Under the pieces are notes generated by a model. That model had not been told where the DNA came from. It worked only from the letters and a program-made list of their open reading frames with translations, and made no database searches. From assembly GCA_015056055.1 (NCBI GenBank), contig SVHC01000002.1, positions 1 to 64,000 of the forward strand: a stretch of 64,000 bases of DNA, read 5' to 3'. This document shows, piece after piece, positions 40,375 through 50,715 of the stretch. Source of the stretch: Clostridiales bacterium (GTDB lineage Bacteria; Bacillota; Clostridia; Christensenellales; Aristaeellaceae). A program made the translations under genes and the position numbers. Each line of letters begins with the position of its first letter. Within the stretch, counting starts at the first letter, position 1.

Positions 40375-40917
40375 TTATTCTACGAAGATCGCGCTGTACC
40401 AGTTCTGCTGATCGGTTTCCGGGCAGGCGAGCGTTTCAATGGGAAGTCCCAGATCACGCACGGTCTTGAAAACGTCAATGCCGACAGAGTGGAATGCGGG
40501 ACGTGCCATTTTGGGGAAACGGCAGGGGGCATTTTCCACGCAGGCGCATTCATTGCAAAGCGCACAGTCGCTCATGGAGAATGCGAAATAATAACCGGCA
40601 TGGAACATGCGGGATTCGATCGCGAGGGAAATTTTGTGCGAAAGCGCCTTGTCATGCGTGTGCACGATAATGCCCCACTTATAGCGGGAAAGCATTTCGC
40701 GATATTCGGCGATGGAAACATTGTTCGCGCGGGAAGGGCAGGTATGATTGCGGCCCCAGTCGGAACAGCCGAACATGCACTTGAGCAGTGTGCGGGAATC
40801 AAAGGCGATATCGTCAATCGTGAAAAGTACGGCATCAGCTGCGCCCATATCGAGCGCTTCCTTAATGCAATCAGACGCTGCGCGCGAAGATTCGGCGGAT
40901 AACATTCTTTCGTCCAT
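40375..40917 (-). CDS. DUF2284-type metal-binding protein
   Basis: 180 aa with many cysteines: CMFGCSDWGRNHTCPSR near residues 47-63 and CALCNECACVENAPC near 122-136, a pattern like ferredoxin-type Fe-S ligation. This matches the DUF2284 family of predicted metal-binding proteins in anaerobes. The ATG at 40917 follows GAGGAG by 8 bp. It overlaps the end of the DnaJ-like gene by 47 bp, so the two are coupled. Confidence 0.8.
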   Translation of the reverse strand: MDERMLSAESSRAASDCIKEALDMGAADAVLFTIDDIAFDSRTLLKCMFGCSDWGRNHTCPSRANNVSIAEYREMLSRYKWGIIVHTHDKALSHKISLAIESRMFHAGYYFAFSMSDCALCNECACVENAPCRFPKMARPAFHSVGIDVFKTVRDLGLPIETLACPETDQQNWYSAIFVE

Positions 40918-41377
40918 AAAGCTGCTCCTCTGCCTGCTGATAGGCGATGCGGTATTCCTTGCAATCCGGTTTCTGGCGGGTGGATACGCCAAGATAGGTG
41001 ACTGCCTTCTGATATTCACCCAGCATATACAGCGCTCTGCCGAAAAGATAATTCCATTCGGCGCTGCGGCAGGCAGTGCTCATCAGAACACGGCGAGCAT
41101 GCACGGGCTGATTGTTATTCAAATGAGCAAGCGCGCTTTCAAGGCAATCGCGCTCTTCGCATATAACTTGTTTTCCGCCGAGCTGAGCAATGCACTCGGC
41201 ATAGGCGGTATTGATTTCGAGCATTTTAGCCTCCGCCCATGCACGTTCCGGACCTTCAGTAAAGCGATCCGGGTGCCAGCGGCGTGCGAGGGAGCGATAT
41301 GCCTGATGGATGACCTGACGATCCATGGTACGATCGATACCGAGCGTCTTAAACGGATCAGCCACGCACAACACCAT
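40871..41377 (-). CDS. DnaJ-domain protein
   Basis: About 165 aa. An N-terminal J domain is clear: FKTLGIDRTMDRQVIHQAYR followed by the HPD tripeptide in RRWHPDRF, which activates Hsp70/DnaK. The rest (residues about 70-160) is helical and could form TPR-like hairpins (LNNNQPVHARRVLM, WNYLFGRALYMLGEYQKAV). It lacks the Gly/Phe and zinc parts of classical DnaJ. The start is uncertain among 41386, 41377 and a GTG at 41365. Confidence 0.8.
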   Translation of the reverse strand: MVLCVADPFKTLGIDRTMDRQVIHQAYRSLARRWHPDRFTEGPERAWAEAKMLEINTAYAECIAQLGGKQVICEERDCLESALAHLNNNQPVHARRVLMSTACRSAEWNYLFGRALYMLGEYQKAVTYLGVSTRQKPDCKEYRIAYQQAEEQLYGRKNVIRRIFARSV

Positions 41378-44361: not shown

Positions 44362-44395
44362 ACAAAACTGATAAATCGTGAAGGGGTGGAGAAAA

Positions 44396-45271
44396 TTGTC
44401 GAAGAATCTGCTTGCACTGAGTGATCTGGGCGTACAGGAAATTCAGAGTATGCTGGAGGAGGCTCAATTTTTTCGTGAGACGGGTCTTTATCCCCGTTTG
44501 GAGGGTAAGGTAGCCTGTAATTTATTTTTTGAATCGTCGACTCGCACCCAATATAGCTTCTGTGTTGCTCAGAATAAGATGGGTATGCGAGTCGTTTCTT
44601 TTGATCCGGCGAGCTCTTCGATGAATAAGGGCGAAACTTTTTATGACACGGTTAAGGTGTTTGACAGCCTGGGTGTAGATGTGATGGTTATCCGTCATCA
44701 GGAAAACGAATACTATCGCGAACTGCTGGGTCATATCCGTGCTCCGCTGGTAAATGGCGGCGACGGCACGGGCAACCATCCCACGCAGAGCCTGCTGGAC
44801 CTTCTGACCATCCGCCAGGAATTTGGCCGCTTTGAAGGCCTGAAGGTCTCTATCATTGGCGACGTTCGCTATTCCCGTGTAGCGCGCACCAACTACGAAG
44901 TAATGCGCCGTTTGGGCATGGAGGTTGTAATTGCAGGCCCCGAGGAGTTCCTTACGCCGGAATATCCTGATGAGGATGTAGATAAGGCGATCGCCACTTC
45001 TGATGTCGTTATGATGCTGCGCATTCAGAAGGAAAGGCAGACGCTCTGGCAGCGCTTCACGGAGGAACAGTATCATTCCGCTTATGGTCTGACTGCAGAG
45101 CGTGTAAACAAAATGAAGGAAAAGGCCATTATCCTGCATCCTGCGCCCTTTAATCGCGGCGTGGAAATTGCAAGCGAAGTGGTAGAGTGCGATAAGTCCC
45201 GTATTTTCCGCCAGATGGAAAATGGTGTGTTTGTTCGCATGGCGGCAATCCGCCGCGCGGTGGAAGACTAA
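44396..45271 (+). CDS. pyrB: Aspartate carbamoyltransferase, catalytic subunit
   Basis: 291-aa enzyme joining carbamoyl phosphate and aspartate in pyrimidine synthesis. The carbamoyl-phosphate site FFESSTRTQYSF and GDGTGNHPTQSLLDLLTI are conserved, as is VIRHQENEYYRELL, close to the Bacillus protein. The TTG at 44396 is chosen: it gives MSKNLLALSD and follows GGTGGAG; an in-frame GTG six codons upstream overlaps that site. No pyrI is seen. The stop shares one base with the pyrC start. Confidence 0.93.
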   Translation: MSKNLLALSDLGVQEIQSMLEEAQFFRETGLYPRLEGKVACNLFFESSTRTQYSFCVAQNKMGMRVVSFDPASSSMNKGETFYDTVKVFDSLGVDVMVIRHQENEYYRELLGHIRAPLVNGGDGTGNHPTQSLLDLLTIRQEFGRFEGLKVSIIGDVRYSRVARTNYEVMRRLGMEVVIAGPEEFLTPEYPDEDVDKAIATSDVVMMLRIQKERQTLWQRFTEEQYHSAYGLTAERVNKMKEKAIILHPAPFNRGVEIASEVVECDKSRIFRQMENGVFVRMAAIRRAVED

Positions 45272-46479
45272 TGGGCGCCCGTGTATATGCCGGCGGTCAG
45301 GTTTATCGCAACGGCAGACTGGATGAGCTTGACATCTGCGTAGAGGATGGAATCATCACTGCAATCGGAAAGGATCTTCCCGGCGAAGACCGCGTGGACT
45401 GCACCGGCAAGATCATTACGCCCGGCTTTATCGACCTGCATGTGCATCTGCGTGAGCCGGGATATGAAAAGAAAGAGACCATTGCTTCCGGAACAGCGCT
45501 TGCGAAAAAGAGCGGCTTTCAGACTGTGTGCGCCATGCCGAATCTGAATCCCGCGCCGGACGCACCTGAAACTGCCGATGTGGAGCTTGCTGCAATTCGC
45601 CGCAGCGCCGAAATCGATACGCGCATTTACGGTACGATTACCCGTGAGCGTGCCGGTAAGGAACTGTCGGATATCGAAGGTCTTGCGCCTTTTGTGTGCG
45701 GATATACGGATGACGGCAGCGGCATTCAGAGCGAAGCTCTGATGGAAGAGGCGATGCTTGCCATCAAAAAGACCGGGCATTTCCTGGCTGCTCATGTAGA
45801 GGATATGGCATTGGTACCGAAGGGTGGCTGCATCCGCGAGGGCATTGCGTCTGAAAAGTTCGGCGTGGTAGGTATTCCGCCGGAGTCCGAAACGCAGCAG
45901 CTTCTGCGCGATCTGAAACTTGTGGAGAAGACGGGCGTGCGCTATCACATGTGCCATATCTCCGCAAAGGAAAGCGTTGAAGCCATCCGCGAAGCTAAGC
46001 AAAAGGGTCTGCCGGTAACGTGCGAAGTTACGCCGCATCAGCTGTGCCTGTGCGACGAGGATATTACCGAGGATAACGGCCGGTTCAAGATGAACCCGCC
46101 GCTGGGAACGCAGGAAGACCGCCGTGCGCTGATCATCGGTGTTCTGGACGGAACGATCGATGTAATCGCTACGGACCATGCACCGCATACGCCTGAGGAA
46201 AAGGGCAGGGGACTGGCGCTTTCCGCGTTTGGCGTATCCGGATTTGCAACGGCATTTGCCGCCAGCATTTCCGTGCTGCCGATTACGGTTGTACTGCAAA
46301 AGATGATTGATGCACCCGCGCGCATTCTGGGAATGGGTGATGTTACCCTGCGCGAGGGAATGAAGGCATGCTTTAACATCCTGCATATGAATCCCTGGAC
46401 CGTATGCAGCGAGGGAAGAAGCACTCCGTTTGAGGGAATGACGCTTACAGGAGGTTGCGAATGCAGAATCGAAAATTGA
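45271..46479 (+). CDS. pyrC: Dihydroorotase
   Basis: 402-aa zinc amidohydrolase closing carbamoyl-aspartate to dihydroorotate. The metal ligands are in DLHVHLREPGYE, later His in AAHVED and CHISAKES, and catalytic Asp in VIATDHAPHTPEEK. The length and motif order match class I (Bacillus-type) enzymes. It starts within the pyrB stop (TAATG), so translation is coupled. Its 3' end overlaps carA. Confidence 0.94.
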   Translation: MGARVYAGGQVYRNGRLDELDICVEDGIITAIGKDLPGEDRVDCTGKIITPGFIDLHVHLREPGYEKKETIASGTALAKKSGFQTVCAMPNLNPAPDAPETADVELAAIRRSAEIDTRIYGTITRERAGKELSDIEGLAPFVCGYTDDGSGIQSEALMEEAMLAIKKTGHFLAAHVEDMALVPKGGCIREGIASEKFGVVGIPPESETQQLLRDLKLVEKTGVRYHMCHISAKESVEAIREAKQKGLPVTCEVTPHQLCLCDEDITEDNGRFKMNPPLGTQEDRRALIIGVLDGTIDVIATDHAPHTPEEKGRGLALSAFGVSGFATAFAASISVLPITVVLQKMIDAPARILGMGDVTLREGMKACFNILHMNPWTVCSEGRSTPFEGMTLTGGCECRIEN

Positions 46480-47540
46480 TTTTTGAAAACGGCCGCGTAT
46501 TTGAAGGCGAAGGCTTCGGTGCGAAATGCGACGCAGTATGCGAAGTTGTGCTCAATACGGCAGTAGTCGGCTATCAGGAAATTCTCTCTGACCCGAGCTG
46601 CTATGGTCAGCTGGTAGTAATGACCTATCCGCTGATCGGCAATTACGGTCTGACGGACGAGGATTATGAGTCCCGTACGCCGAAAATCGGCGGCTTTGTT
46701 GTGCGTGAATATAACGATGCGCCCTCCAACTACCGCTATACCCGCACGCTTGCGGACGTAATGGCGGAGAACAACATCCCCGGTATTGCAGGCGTTGATA
46801 CCCGCGCAATCACCCGCATGATCCGTGATGAGGGCGGTATGCGCGCGATCCTTACCGATCTGCCGGTTGAAGAAGCGATGGCAAAGCTGCGCGCTTCCGA
46901 AGTCCGTAAGGATCAGGTTGCATGTGTGGGCAGCAAGAGCGTATGGTATTCCCGCACCGCAAACTATAAATACAATGTGGTTGCTGTGGATTGCGGTATG
47001 AAGCAGAGCATCGTTCGCCGCCTCAATGAAAAAGGCTGCAACGTGATCGCTGTGCCCTATAACACCTCCGCAGAAACCGTTATGTCCTTTAAGCCGGACG
47101 CACTGCTTATTTCCAACGGTCCGGGTAATCCGGAAGATGTGCCCGAGGTAATTGAGCTTGTGCGCGCACTGCAGGGCAAGATGCCCATTTTCGGCATCGG
47201 TCTTGGACATCAGATCATTGCGCTGGCAAACGGCGCAACTGTAAGCCGTCTGAAGTTCGGTCAGGGCGGAAGCGGCCCTGTTAAGGAGCTTGCCACCGGC
47301 AAGGTAGAGCTGGCTTCCAAGCATCAGAGCTACACCGTTGATGCAGACAGCGTTGCGGGCACCAAACTGACGATTACCCATGTGAACCTGCTGGACAACT
47401 CCGTTGCCGGACTTGCCTGCGCAGAGGAGAAGGTATTCTCCGTTCAGTATCAGCCTGAAAGCGCACCCGGCCCGCAGGACAGTGATTATCTGTTTGACCG
47501 CTTTATCGCCATGATGGAGGAGGGACGCAGGAATGCCTAA
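46461..47540 (+). CDS. carA: Carbamoyl-phosphate synthase small subunit, glutaminase site lost
   Basis: 359 aa with both normal parts: the N-terminal CarA domain (residues 1-150) and a class I glutamine-amidotransferase domain (170-355). In active CarA the nucleophile lies in GICLGHQ and the catalytic His in QYHPE. Here these read FGIGLGHQ (Gly247, codon GGT) and VQYQPES (Gln331, codon CAG); the Glu is kept. The substrate loops also differ ([17 protein letters not shown]). It should not hydrolyse glutamine. The ATG at 46461 fits AGGAGG at 46450-46455. The frame is intact, and it overlaps carB by 8 bp. Confidence 0.93.
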
Positions 47541-50500
47541 GCGTACAGACATTAAGAAGATTCTGGTTATTGGTTCCGGTCCGATCGTCATCGGCCAGGC
47601 GGCTGAGTTTGACTATTCCGGCACGCAGGCCTGCCTCGCTCTGAAGGAGCAGGGCTACACCGTTATCCTGATGAACTCCAACCCGGCGACTATCATGACC
47701 GATACCAACATCGCCGATAAGGTATACATGGAACCCCTTACCCTGGAATACACTGCGAAGATCATCCGCAAGGAGCGTCCGGATGCACTTCTGCCCACGC
47801 TGGGCGGCCAGACCGGTCTGAACCTTGCCATGCAGCTGCACAAGAAGGGCGTTCTGCAGGAGTGCCAGTGCGAAATTCTGGGTACCGGCTTTGAGTGCAT
47901 CGAAAACGCCGAGGACCGCGAACTGTTCAAGCAGCTGTGCATGAAGATTGGCGAGCCGGTTATTGCTTCCGACGTTGCCAACACCGTGGAAGAGGCGCTG
48001 GAAATTGCCCGCAAGATCGGCTATCCCGTTGTTCTGCGTCCTGCATTCACGCTGGGCGGTACCGGCGGCGGCTTTGCCGATAACGAGGAAGAGATGCTCG
48101 CCCGTATTGAAAACGCGCTGCATCTGTCCCCGGTAAGCCAGGTTCTGATTGAAAAATCCATCCGCGGCTATAAGGAAATCGAATTCGAGGTCATGCGCGA
48201 TAAGAACGATACCGCGCTGGCCATCTGCAGCATGGAAAATATGGATCCCGTCGGCGTTCACACGGGCGACTCCATCGTAGTTGCTCCCAGCCAGACGCTG
48301 ACCAACAAGGAATACCACATGCTCCGCGATGCAGCGCTGCGCCTGATTCGCGCGCTGGAGATCGAGGGCGGCTGCAATGTGCAGTTTGCACTGGATCCGT
48401 ATTCCATGAATTACTATGTTATCGAGGTTAACCCGCGCGTATCCCGTTCTTCCGCTCTGGCATCCAAGGCCAGCGGTTTCCCGATTGCAAAGGTCAGCGC
48501 ACTGATTTCTGTCGGCTTTACGCTGGAAGAAATTCCGCTGGCAAATGCAAATGCCAACTTCGAGCCCGCTCTGGACTATGTGGTATGCAAGGTTGCCCGC
48601 TTCCCGTTCGATAAGTTCGATAAGGCGTCCCGCAATCTGTCCACCCAGATGAAGGCCACCGGTGAAGTTATGGCTATCGGCCGTACCATGGAGGAGAGCA
48701 TCCTGAAGGCCGTGCGTTCTCTGGAATCCGGCGTAACGCATATCTGGCTGAAGAAGTTTGACAGCTTCACCACCGAGGCTCTATTTGAAGAAATCAAAAA
48801 TCCCACCGATGAGCGTCTGTATGCCATTGCAGAGCTGCTGCGCCGCGGTGCGGACCTGAACGATATTTGCGATGCTACGAGAATTGACTATTTCTTCATC
48901 TCCAAGCTGCGCAACATCGTTGATATGGAAGCAGTCATAAAGGCAAATCCGAAGAATCTGGATGTACTCCGCCGCGCAAAGCGTATGGGCATCTCGGATA
49001 TCTACATCGGCAAGTGCTGGGGCATGACCGAATCCGAAATGTACCTGCTGCGCCGTGACAATGGAATCAGGCCGGTATATAAGATGATCGATACCTGCGC
49101 AGGCCAGATTCCGTCCTACATTCCGTACTTCTACTCTACTTACGAGCAGGAGAACGAATCCATCGTTACCGATCGTCCCTCCGTTATCGTTCTGGGCGCA
49201 GGTCCGATCCGTATCGGTCAGGGCGTTGAGTTCGACTATTCCACCGTGCATGCCATCTGGGCAATCCGCGAGGCGGGATACGAGGCTATCATCATCAACA
49301 ACAACCCCGAAACGGTTTCCACGGACTACACGGTCAGCGATAAGCTCTATTTCGAGCCGCTGACGGTCGAAGATGTTATGAACATCATCGATATGGAGAA
49401 GCCCTTCGGCGTTATCGTTTCCCTGGGCGGTCAGACGGCCATCAACCTTGCAGACCGTTTGGACAAGCTGGGCGTTCCGATCATCGGCACGGACGTTGCC
49501 GCTATCGAGCGCGCCGAAAACCGCGACAGCTTCGAAAAGACCATGAACCAGCTGGGCATCCCGCAGCCCGAAGGCTGTGCCGTAACCCGCATTGAGGACG
49601 GCGTTGCCGCAGCTGCCCGCATCGGCTATCCGGTTCTGGTTCGTCCTTCCTACGTTCTGGGCGGCCGCGCGATGCAGATCGTTCATGACGAGGCATCTCT
49701 GCGCCACTATCTGCAGTCCGCAGTTCTGGTCAGCGAAGATCAGCCCGTTCTGGTTGACCGCTATGTCAGCGGTAAGGAACTTGAGGTTGACGCTGTCTGC
49801 GACGGCGAGGATGTATTCATTCCCGGTATCATGCAGCACGTTGAGCGCACCGGTGTTCACTCCGGTGACTCCATCAGCGTATATCCGACCTTCTCCGTAA
49901 GCGAGGAAGCAAAGAACACCATCATCGACTACACCAACCGCCTGGGTATAGGCATCGGTATCAAGGGACCGTTCAACATCCAGTTCATCGTGGATGAGAA
50001 TGACAAGGTGTACGTCATTGAGGTTAACCCGCGTTCTTCCCGTACCGTTCCCTTTATTTCGAAGGTCACCGGCATCAATCTGGCCAACATGGCAACCAAG
50101 GTTGCAATCGGTCAGACGCTGAAGATGCAGGGCTACGGCACCGGCATCGCAAAGGAAAAGGATCGCTGGTATGTCAAGGCTCCGGTATTCTCCTTTGCAA
50201 AGATCCGCGGCGTGGATACCTATCTGTCGCCGGAAATGAAGTCTACGGGCGAAGCCATCGGTTACGATACTACGCTGACTCGCGCTCTGTACAAGGCGCT
50301 GCAGGCGGCAAATATGCGCGTTGCAAACTACGGCACCGTATTTGTCACCATCGCAGATGCAGACAAGCCGCGCGCTCTGCCGCTCATCCGCCGCTTCTAC
50401 GATCTCGGCTTCAACATCGAGGCTACCGCAGGCACTGCACGTTTCCTGCGCGAAAACGGCGTGCGTACCCGCGTAAAGAAGAAGATCAGCGAAGGCAGCG

Positions 50501-50715
50501 ATGAAATTCAGGAATCTCTGAAGATGGGTCACGTTACCTACGTGATCAATACCCTCAGCGAAACCAGCGGCGATACCCATCGCCAGGATGGCTTCCTGAT
50601 CCGTCGTTTCGCGGTTGAAAACAACGTTACCATATTTACTTCGCTCGATACCGTAGGCGTTCTCCTTGATGTACTTGAGGAGATCACCATGAGCGTTTCG
50701 ACGATTGCAGACTAA
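47533..50715 (+). CDS. carB: Carbamoyl-phosphate synthase large subunit
   Basis: 1060-aa synthase making carbamoyl phosphate from bicarbonate, ammonia and two ATP. Two homologous ATP-grasp halves are complete ([12 protein letters not shown] in the first, [14 protein letters not shown] in the second), each with the NPR metal motif ([16 protein letters not shown] and [12 protein letters not shown]). The C-terminal MGS-like allosteric domain starts near residue 940 and ends in [16 protein letters not shown] loop after GFTLEEI is about four residues shorter than in E. coli. It is the last gene of the operon. Confidence 0.96.

Follow-up and report, generated by a model that had tools for sequence, protein, structure and literature searches.

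The carbamoyl-phosphate synthase (CPS) encoded in the pyrimidine operon of this Clostridiales genome likely uses ammonia only, with free NH3 as its inferred nitrogen donor and with a small subunit, CarA, whose glutaminase is predicted to be dead and which would be kept as a structural subunit. The operon lies in the window, by which we mean the whole 64,000-nucleotide stretch of DNA that was analysed, and its CarA has lost both the nucleophilic Cys and the catalytic His of the class-I amidotransferase site. The only other CarA found in the genome has lost both as well, and losses of the same kind recur across the family and the class.

Results

The window CarA lacks both glutaminase catalytic residues

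The window is situated on contig C40 of a 2.83-Mb assembly (G000) that comprises 80 contigs, with 95% completeness and 2.84% contamination. Gene order predicts an operon, pyrB-pyrC-carA-carB, in which all genes lie on the + strand and their ends overlap. The genes and the altered parts of carA, the latter placed by alignment, are as follows.

44378..45271, + strand: pyrB, 297 aa, the catalytic subunit of aspartate carbamoyltransferase (NCBIfam NF002032, 342.6 bits, cut-off 263)
45271..46479, + strand: pyrC, dihydroorotase, 402 aa, overlapping the start of carA (TIGR00857, 320.6 bits, cut-off 279.05)
46461..47540, + strand: carA with a dead glutaminase site, 359 aa plus stop (TIGR01368, 396.5 bits, cut-off 307.35)
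47199..47201, + strand: GGT codon for Gly247 in the position of the nucleophile (Cys269 in E. coli)
47256..47276, + strand: altered glutamine-site loop FGQGGSG (relatives FGHRGGNH, one residue longer)
47316..47342, + strand: altered glutamine-site loop SKHQSYTVD (relatives SQNHSYAVD)
47451..47453, + strand: CAG codon for Gln331 in the position of the catalytic His (His353 in E. coli)
47533..50715, + strand: carB, CPS large subunit, 1060 aa, overlapping the end of carA (TIGR01369, 1465.8 bits, cut-off 1027)

Elsewhere in the window, positions 40375-41019 of the - strand encode a short protein similar to the C-terminal portion (DUF2284) of arsenite methyltransferase selenoproteins, at a score far under the model cut-off.

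The initial annotation had described an intact 359-codon carA frame within an intact operon, in which the Cys motif GICLGHQ was changed to GIGLGHQ and the His motif QYHPE to QYQPE. Translation and gene order bear out the frame and the operon; the translated motif reads FGIGLGHQ with GGT at the Cys codon, and CAG stands at the His codon. Alignment with E. coli CarA, for which solved structures exist, and among 192 CarA frames (duplicate genes L005, L006 and L202 and frames under 90 bits left out) places both substitutions in the catalytic columns. At the corresponding codons, the same-genus genome G001 carries TGC (Cys) and CAT (His). The further claim that the oxyanion and glutamine-binding loops also depart from consensus stood in part: the two glutamine-site loops do differ (in a wider frame, KFGQGGSGP against KFGHRGGNHP in relatives, and KHQSYTV against QNHSYAV), whereas the oxyanion strand SNGPGNP is unchanged, relatives having either SNGPGDP or SNGPGNP. 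Ser47, which we take to have an active-site role in E. coli CarA, is retained, and the columns of Asn311 and His312 are changed.

The protein possesses both domains by which CarA is recognized, the N-terminal PF00988 (CPSase_sm_chain) and the class-I GATase domain PF00117, and its predicted fold is that of E. coli CarA. The window CarB aligns with E. coli CarB along its length (residues 1-1039). Mutants of E. coli C269 were reportedly made in 1986, and structure 1c30 is, by its title, the C269S mutant of the E. coli enzyme. Class-I amidotransferases require a thiol to form the glutamyl-thioester; because the window CarA has no such thiol, no glutamyl-thioester would form, and glutamine hydrolysis is excluded with high confidence. 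A review describes Cys269 and His353 as essential for glutamine hydrolysis in E. coli CPS (PMC6245113). Neither of these residues, which mark a CPS-II, is found in the window protein (Gly247 and Gln331 instead), which, judged by its sequence, is a CarA by descent but does not qualify as the small subunit of a glutamine-hydrolysing CPS. The loss escapes automatic naming, because the dead CarA exceeds the cut-off of an NCBI model named for the glutamine-hydrolyzing CPS small subunit. Another genetic code was considered and set aside; no variant code is known to read GGT or CAG differently.

The second CarA of the genome has lost the same residues

The initial annotation had proposed a search for a second, active carA. 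A second carA was found, on contig C77 in the order argF-carA-carB, and in this copy too both residues are lost, with AIGLGNQ at the Cys motif and DFYPA at the His motif. No intact CarA was present in G000 among the TIGR01368 or PF00117 matches, and both CarA frames and both CarB frames are intact. In G001, the only other member of the genus that was compared, Cys and His are intact in both CarA, which share 74% and 59% identity with the G000 copies. The two G000 paralogues sit on different branches of the CarA tree, each beside its intact G001 counterpart; their losses were thus separate and, since both G001 copies are intact, recent and parallel, having followed the species split.

An error of sequencing, assembly or binning could mimic a loss of this kind, and the fragmentation, completeness and contamination of the assembly given above leave some room for one. 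However, two paralogues on two contigs have both residues changed along with the surrounding loops, and the same kind of change appears in other assemblies; we regard an artefact as extremely improbable.

A PF00117 scan of G000 picked out six proteins that carry a class-I amidotransferase domain: the two CarA, HisH, two peptidase-C26-like proteins and the GMP synthetase GuaA. The Cys is intact in HisH and in the two peptidase-C26-like proteins, and PurF looks intact by eye. Judged by these sequences, other enzymes of the cell probably still draw on glutamine, whereas its two CPS cannot.

Other amidotransferases of the two genomes were observed alongside. The sole whole GuaA found in G000 (contig C29; L212, 1450-2994; L262) has a full-length glutaminase domain in which the Cys and His places are changed (LALGCPAM and LQFFPEN). 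G001 has a dead-domain GuaA copy (L216) in addition to a canonical one (L209), the latter beside a PyrG with intact motifs. Across 17 genomes searched, in which not every match was given a locus, GuaA (L261-L285, L223) occurred as canonical copies, as whole frames of about 334-421 aa in which nothing matches the glutaminase part, as truncated copies of 433 and 449 aa, and as full-length but dead copies; the 14 dead full-length loci, 12 of them besides those of G000 and G001, have Gly at the Cys place as read by eye, unaligned. Near the start of contig C80 of G000, a GuaA remnant of about 60 codons with an in-frame stop (L286) resembles the glutaminase-less GuaA of relatives. CTP synthase (PyrG) was not found in the G000 assembly, which may be due to an assembly gap. 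No GlmS over the family cut-off was detected in G000 or G001, and it was present in 14/14 control genomes; glucosamine-6-phosphate might be made another way, or scavenged, in these two genomes.

Dead CarA recurs in the family and the class

The initial annotation had suggested looking for the same changes in related genomes. The same kind of change recurs in other assemblies of the family and the class, and the window is not a one-genome curiosity. The family sample comprised 151 genomes, 101 of which furnished 112 CarA with a readable Cys column; 94 of these CarA are intact, 17 are without Cys or His and one is cut short. Every CarA that was read is dead in 14 of the 101 genomes, and two further genomes combine one dead and one intact copy. 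Named loci were the best 80 of 160 confirmed matches, picked by similarity to the window CarA; among them L024, L026 and L027 are also Cys-less, all in the order pyrC-carA-carB. All 58 named loci that fall outside the pyr-type group (L030-L086, L088), a set that proved a poor control, keep Cys and His.

Confinement of the loss to the window's family was rejected by a control drawn evenly from the class (60 genomes, G000 among them). This control yielded 53 CarA from 45 other genomes, of which 39 are intact and 14 lack the Cys (11 Gly, 2 Asn, 1 Ser); 11 of the 45 genomes have only dead CarA and three have dead and intact copies together. These counts leave unread the CarA fragments G180:C205 (residues 2-134; class control), those of G075 and G124 (family) and some others at contig ends, and L023 and L193, which end before the His, were excluded from His scoring. 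Gut samples are named in the record titles of relatives, among them rumen, deer rectum and cattle cecum, and the CarA of G053 is the same as that of Candidatus Pullichristensenella stercorigallinarum (L083=L171). Ammonia is plentiful in the gut.

These counts bear on the possibility that ammonia is supplied in trans, with a different glutaminase subunit docking on either CarB or CarA. Such a subunit could be sought among the intact-Cys proteins of amidotransferase fold in G000 (HisH and the two peptidase-C26-like proteins), and the five genomes with one intact and one dead CarA, three in the class control and two in the family, also speak for it. Yet the intact-Cys proteins have other expected roles, G000 has no intact CarA that we could find, and the 14 family and 11 control genomes have no live CarA among those read; supply in trans is, in our estimation, very unlikely.

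Separate losses favour Gly and leave CarA under constraint

On a tree of 233 CarA from which the active-site columns were excluded, the 33 rows without Cys form 19 groups and require at the fewest 19 changes, a number that is approximate in either direction, the tree being a quick one with dead rows on long branches. A 180-row tree, from which three fragments (L199-L201) and nine identical rows were left out, was equally quick, has its dead rows listed on long branches and gives 12 as the fewest changes. In the larger tree six Cys-less rows keep the His and one His-less row keeps the Cys, so either residue can be the first to be lost.

Gly is the substitute in 16 of the 19 groups. Of the seven missense codons that a single-base change can make from a Cys codon, one encodes Gly, and against this flat expectation of 1/7 the excess has a binomial P of 2e-11; with p=0.3 it is 1.5e-6. 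A strained nucleophile elbow may favour Gly, or Gly may aid the entry of NH3, for instance as a side entrance to the tunnel.

The 180-row set contains 20 CarA that lack Cys or His, and in these the active-site columns rank among the most often lost: the Cys is kept in 1/20, Ser47 in 2/20, the His in 3/20 and Glu355 in 7/20; mean retention is 90% over 27 conserved N-terminal columns and 75% over 50 GATase columns. Pairwise dN/dS between Cys-less CarA was 0.10, 0.14 and 0.18 in one clade, 0.06 and 0.13 in two class-control pairs and 0.39 in L181/L185; in the pair L351/L352 synonymous sites are saturated. Cys-less CarA is thus under purifying selection in most informative pairs (0.06-0.18, with one at 0.39). 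In CarB beside one of the low-dN/dS Cys-less groups, dN/dS was 0.01-0.04. The CarA change on the window branch is about twice that of its sister (0.25 against 0.12), which relaxed constraint would give likewise; the CarB branch is not faster (0.18 against 0.16).

Constraint of this kind could also reflect a new regulatory role, such as the sensing of glutamine or a nucleotide, with no hydrolysis, that keeps the dead CarA for more than mere structure. In the Cys-less CarA of one clade, constraint on the GATase part is similar to that on the N-terminal part, and part of the glutamine pocket, namely the oxyanion strand and Ser47, remains in the window CarA. However, structure alone explains the constraint, and among the 20 dead rows the columns of Asn311, His312 and Gln273 are altered as well, in 5, 6 and 8 rows respectively, the first two being altered in the window CarA too; a new regulatory role strikes us as having little probability.

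Relatives retain CarB where no CarA is found

CarB was found over cut-off in 108 of the 151 family genomes; in 15 of the 108 no CarA was found, and nine of these 15 genomes are at least 90% complete. Counted over the whole sample, 48/151 genomes have no CarA match better than E 1e-40. We chose 20 carB loci for lying away from any carA: in 16 of them carB follows pyrC and no carA was found, and the remaining four are a pyrB-carB locus with a short frame between the genes, an argF-carB locus and two solitary divergent CarB. Of the 20 loci, 11 come from genomes with pyr-type CarB in which no CarA was found, four from genomes with an intact arg CarA and two from genomes with only a dead arg CarA, and three have the divergent CarB type; for the four, the intact arg CarA could in principle serve the pyr CarB. 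As a side observation, L303, L305 and L306 represent a further type of CarB, with only 44-48% identity to the window CarB; they stand alone or next to argF, and no adjacent carA was found.

The 17 pyr-type CarB without CarA group together with an SH-aLRT support of 99, and their sister group comprises 37 CarB with CarA, which indicates a single loss rather than many. Of 157 columns conserved in both CarA-bearing CarB types, eight are changed in most CarA-less CarB, and these eight are 95-96% kept in CarB beside dead CarA, which we read as a sign that dead CarA still docks on CarB. Since the CarA-less CarB are one clade, the eight changes may be merely marks of descent rather than of a lost interface.

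Decay offers another account of the dead CarA, in which pyrimidines and arginine are taken up, the CPS genes are unneeded and CarA is turning into a pseudogene. The faster CarA branch, the 48 family genomes without a CarA match, the dN/dS of 0.39 in L181/L185 and a stop inside carB in the relative G042 all point in this direction, and some cases may indeed be real decay, G042 with its stop and L181/L185 with their weaker constraint among them. The intact CarA and CarB frames of G000 argue against decay, as do the low dN/dS of Cys-less pairs in three groups and of the CarB beside one, the prevalence of Gly as the substitute and the retention of CarB in relatives without CarA; as an explanation for the window operon, decay appears to us unlikely.

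Discussion

Taken together, a model for an ammonia-fed CPS emerges. In it, the nucleophilic thiol and the catalytic His of CarA are gone, as is part of its glutamine pocket, while the fold and, probably, the surface that docks on CarB are kept. CarB would make carbamoyl phosphate from bicarbonate, two ATP and free cytosolic NH3, with CarA as a structural, possibly allosteric, subunit, and high gut ammonia may have made loss of the glutaminase tolerable or even useful. Both the role of NH3 as the in vivo donor and the binding of dead CarA to CarB are inferred. The initial annotation had already proposed a glutaminase-dead CarA as the structural or allosteric partner of an NH3-fed CarB, and at the level of sequence this proposal is supported by the dead second carA, the intact frames and operon, the alignment of CarB and the relatives with pyrC-carB.

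The biochemistry of the E. coli enzyme counts against this reading. Although E. coli CarB can make carbamoyl phosphate from NH3, a review states that the ammonia concentrations which E. coli CPS needs for this are very high and likely irrelevant to physiology, and gives glutamine as the preferred donor for this enzyme and, by extension, for all bacterial CPS (PMC6245113). A precedent is human CPS1, which is ammonia-only with the Cys replaced by Ser, and takes NH3 from solution, perhaps via an alternative tunnel; E. coli CPS may have such a tunnel too (PMC4655335).

A wider scenario, towards which we lean only slightly, joins these observations: about 20 origins of ammonia-only CPS in Clostridia, mostly by Cys to Gly, with the His, Ser47 and pocket lost before or after; CarB alone in part of the family; and, in the window's lineage, a shift of CPS and GMP synthetase together that would amount to a genome-wide shedding of glutaminase use in ammonia-rich guts, Gly perhaps being favoured by a relaxed elbow or by a side entrance for NH3. 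Among the literature matches listed, judged by title and with most subscription journals outside their scope, we found no report of a bacterial ammonia-only CPS, Cys-less CarA, CarB without CarA or loss of the glutaminase. If the ammonia-only reading is right, a sizeable minority of these bacteria use free ammonia at the CPS step for pyrimidines and arginine, which would bear on how the metabolism of gut communities is modelled, on how glutamine-analogue inhibitors are used and on views of how vertebrate CPS-I evolved. The repeated losses, together with intact copies in a sister species, provide natural replicates for what CarB needs to work on NH3.

Among known systems, bacterial CPS-II as typified by E. 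coli CarAB possesses Cys269 and His353, both of which are gone in the window CarA. Vertebrate CPS-I (CPS1) resembles the window CPS in that a GATase domain is present without its catalytic Cys. CPS1 is a single chain, mitochondrial and activated by N-acetylglutamate, whereas the window CPS is encoded by separate carA and carB in a bacterial operon; in CPS1 the Cys has become Ser, while bacterial dead CarA mostly carries Gly, occurs in pyr and arg operons and stems from many separate losses. Judged by sequence, the window CPS would work like vertebrate CPS-I and, with its two chains, is not a member of that type. Single-domain NAD synthetase is likewise an ammonia-using branch of a family that elsewhere has a glutaminase, with ammonia as the physiological donor (PMC3376133); its single-domain form is held to be ancestral, whereas the CarA glutaminase was lost secondarily here. 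CPS III of Alcolapia fish has shifted convergently towards ammonia through a glutamine-site change, with the Cys-His-Glu triad kept and only one glutamine-binding residue missing (PMC7657897), whereas the window CarA has lost the Cys and the His themselves.
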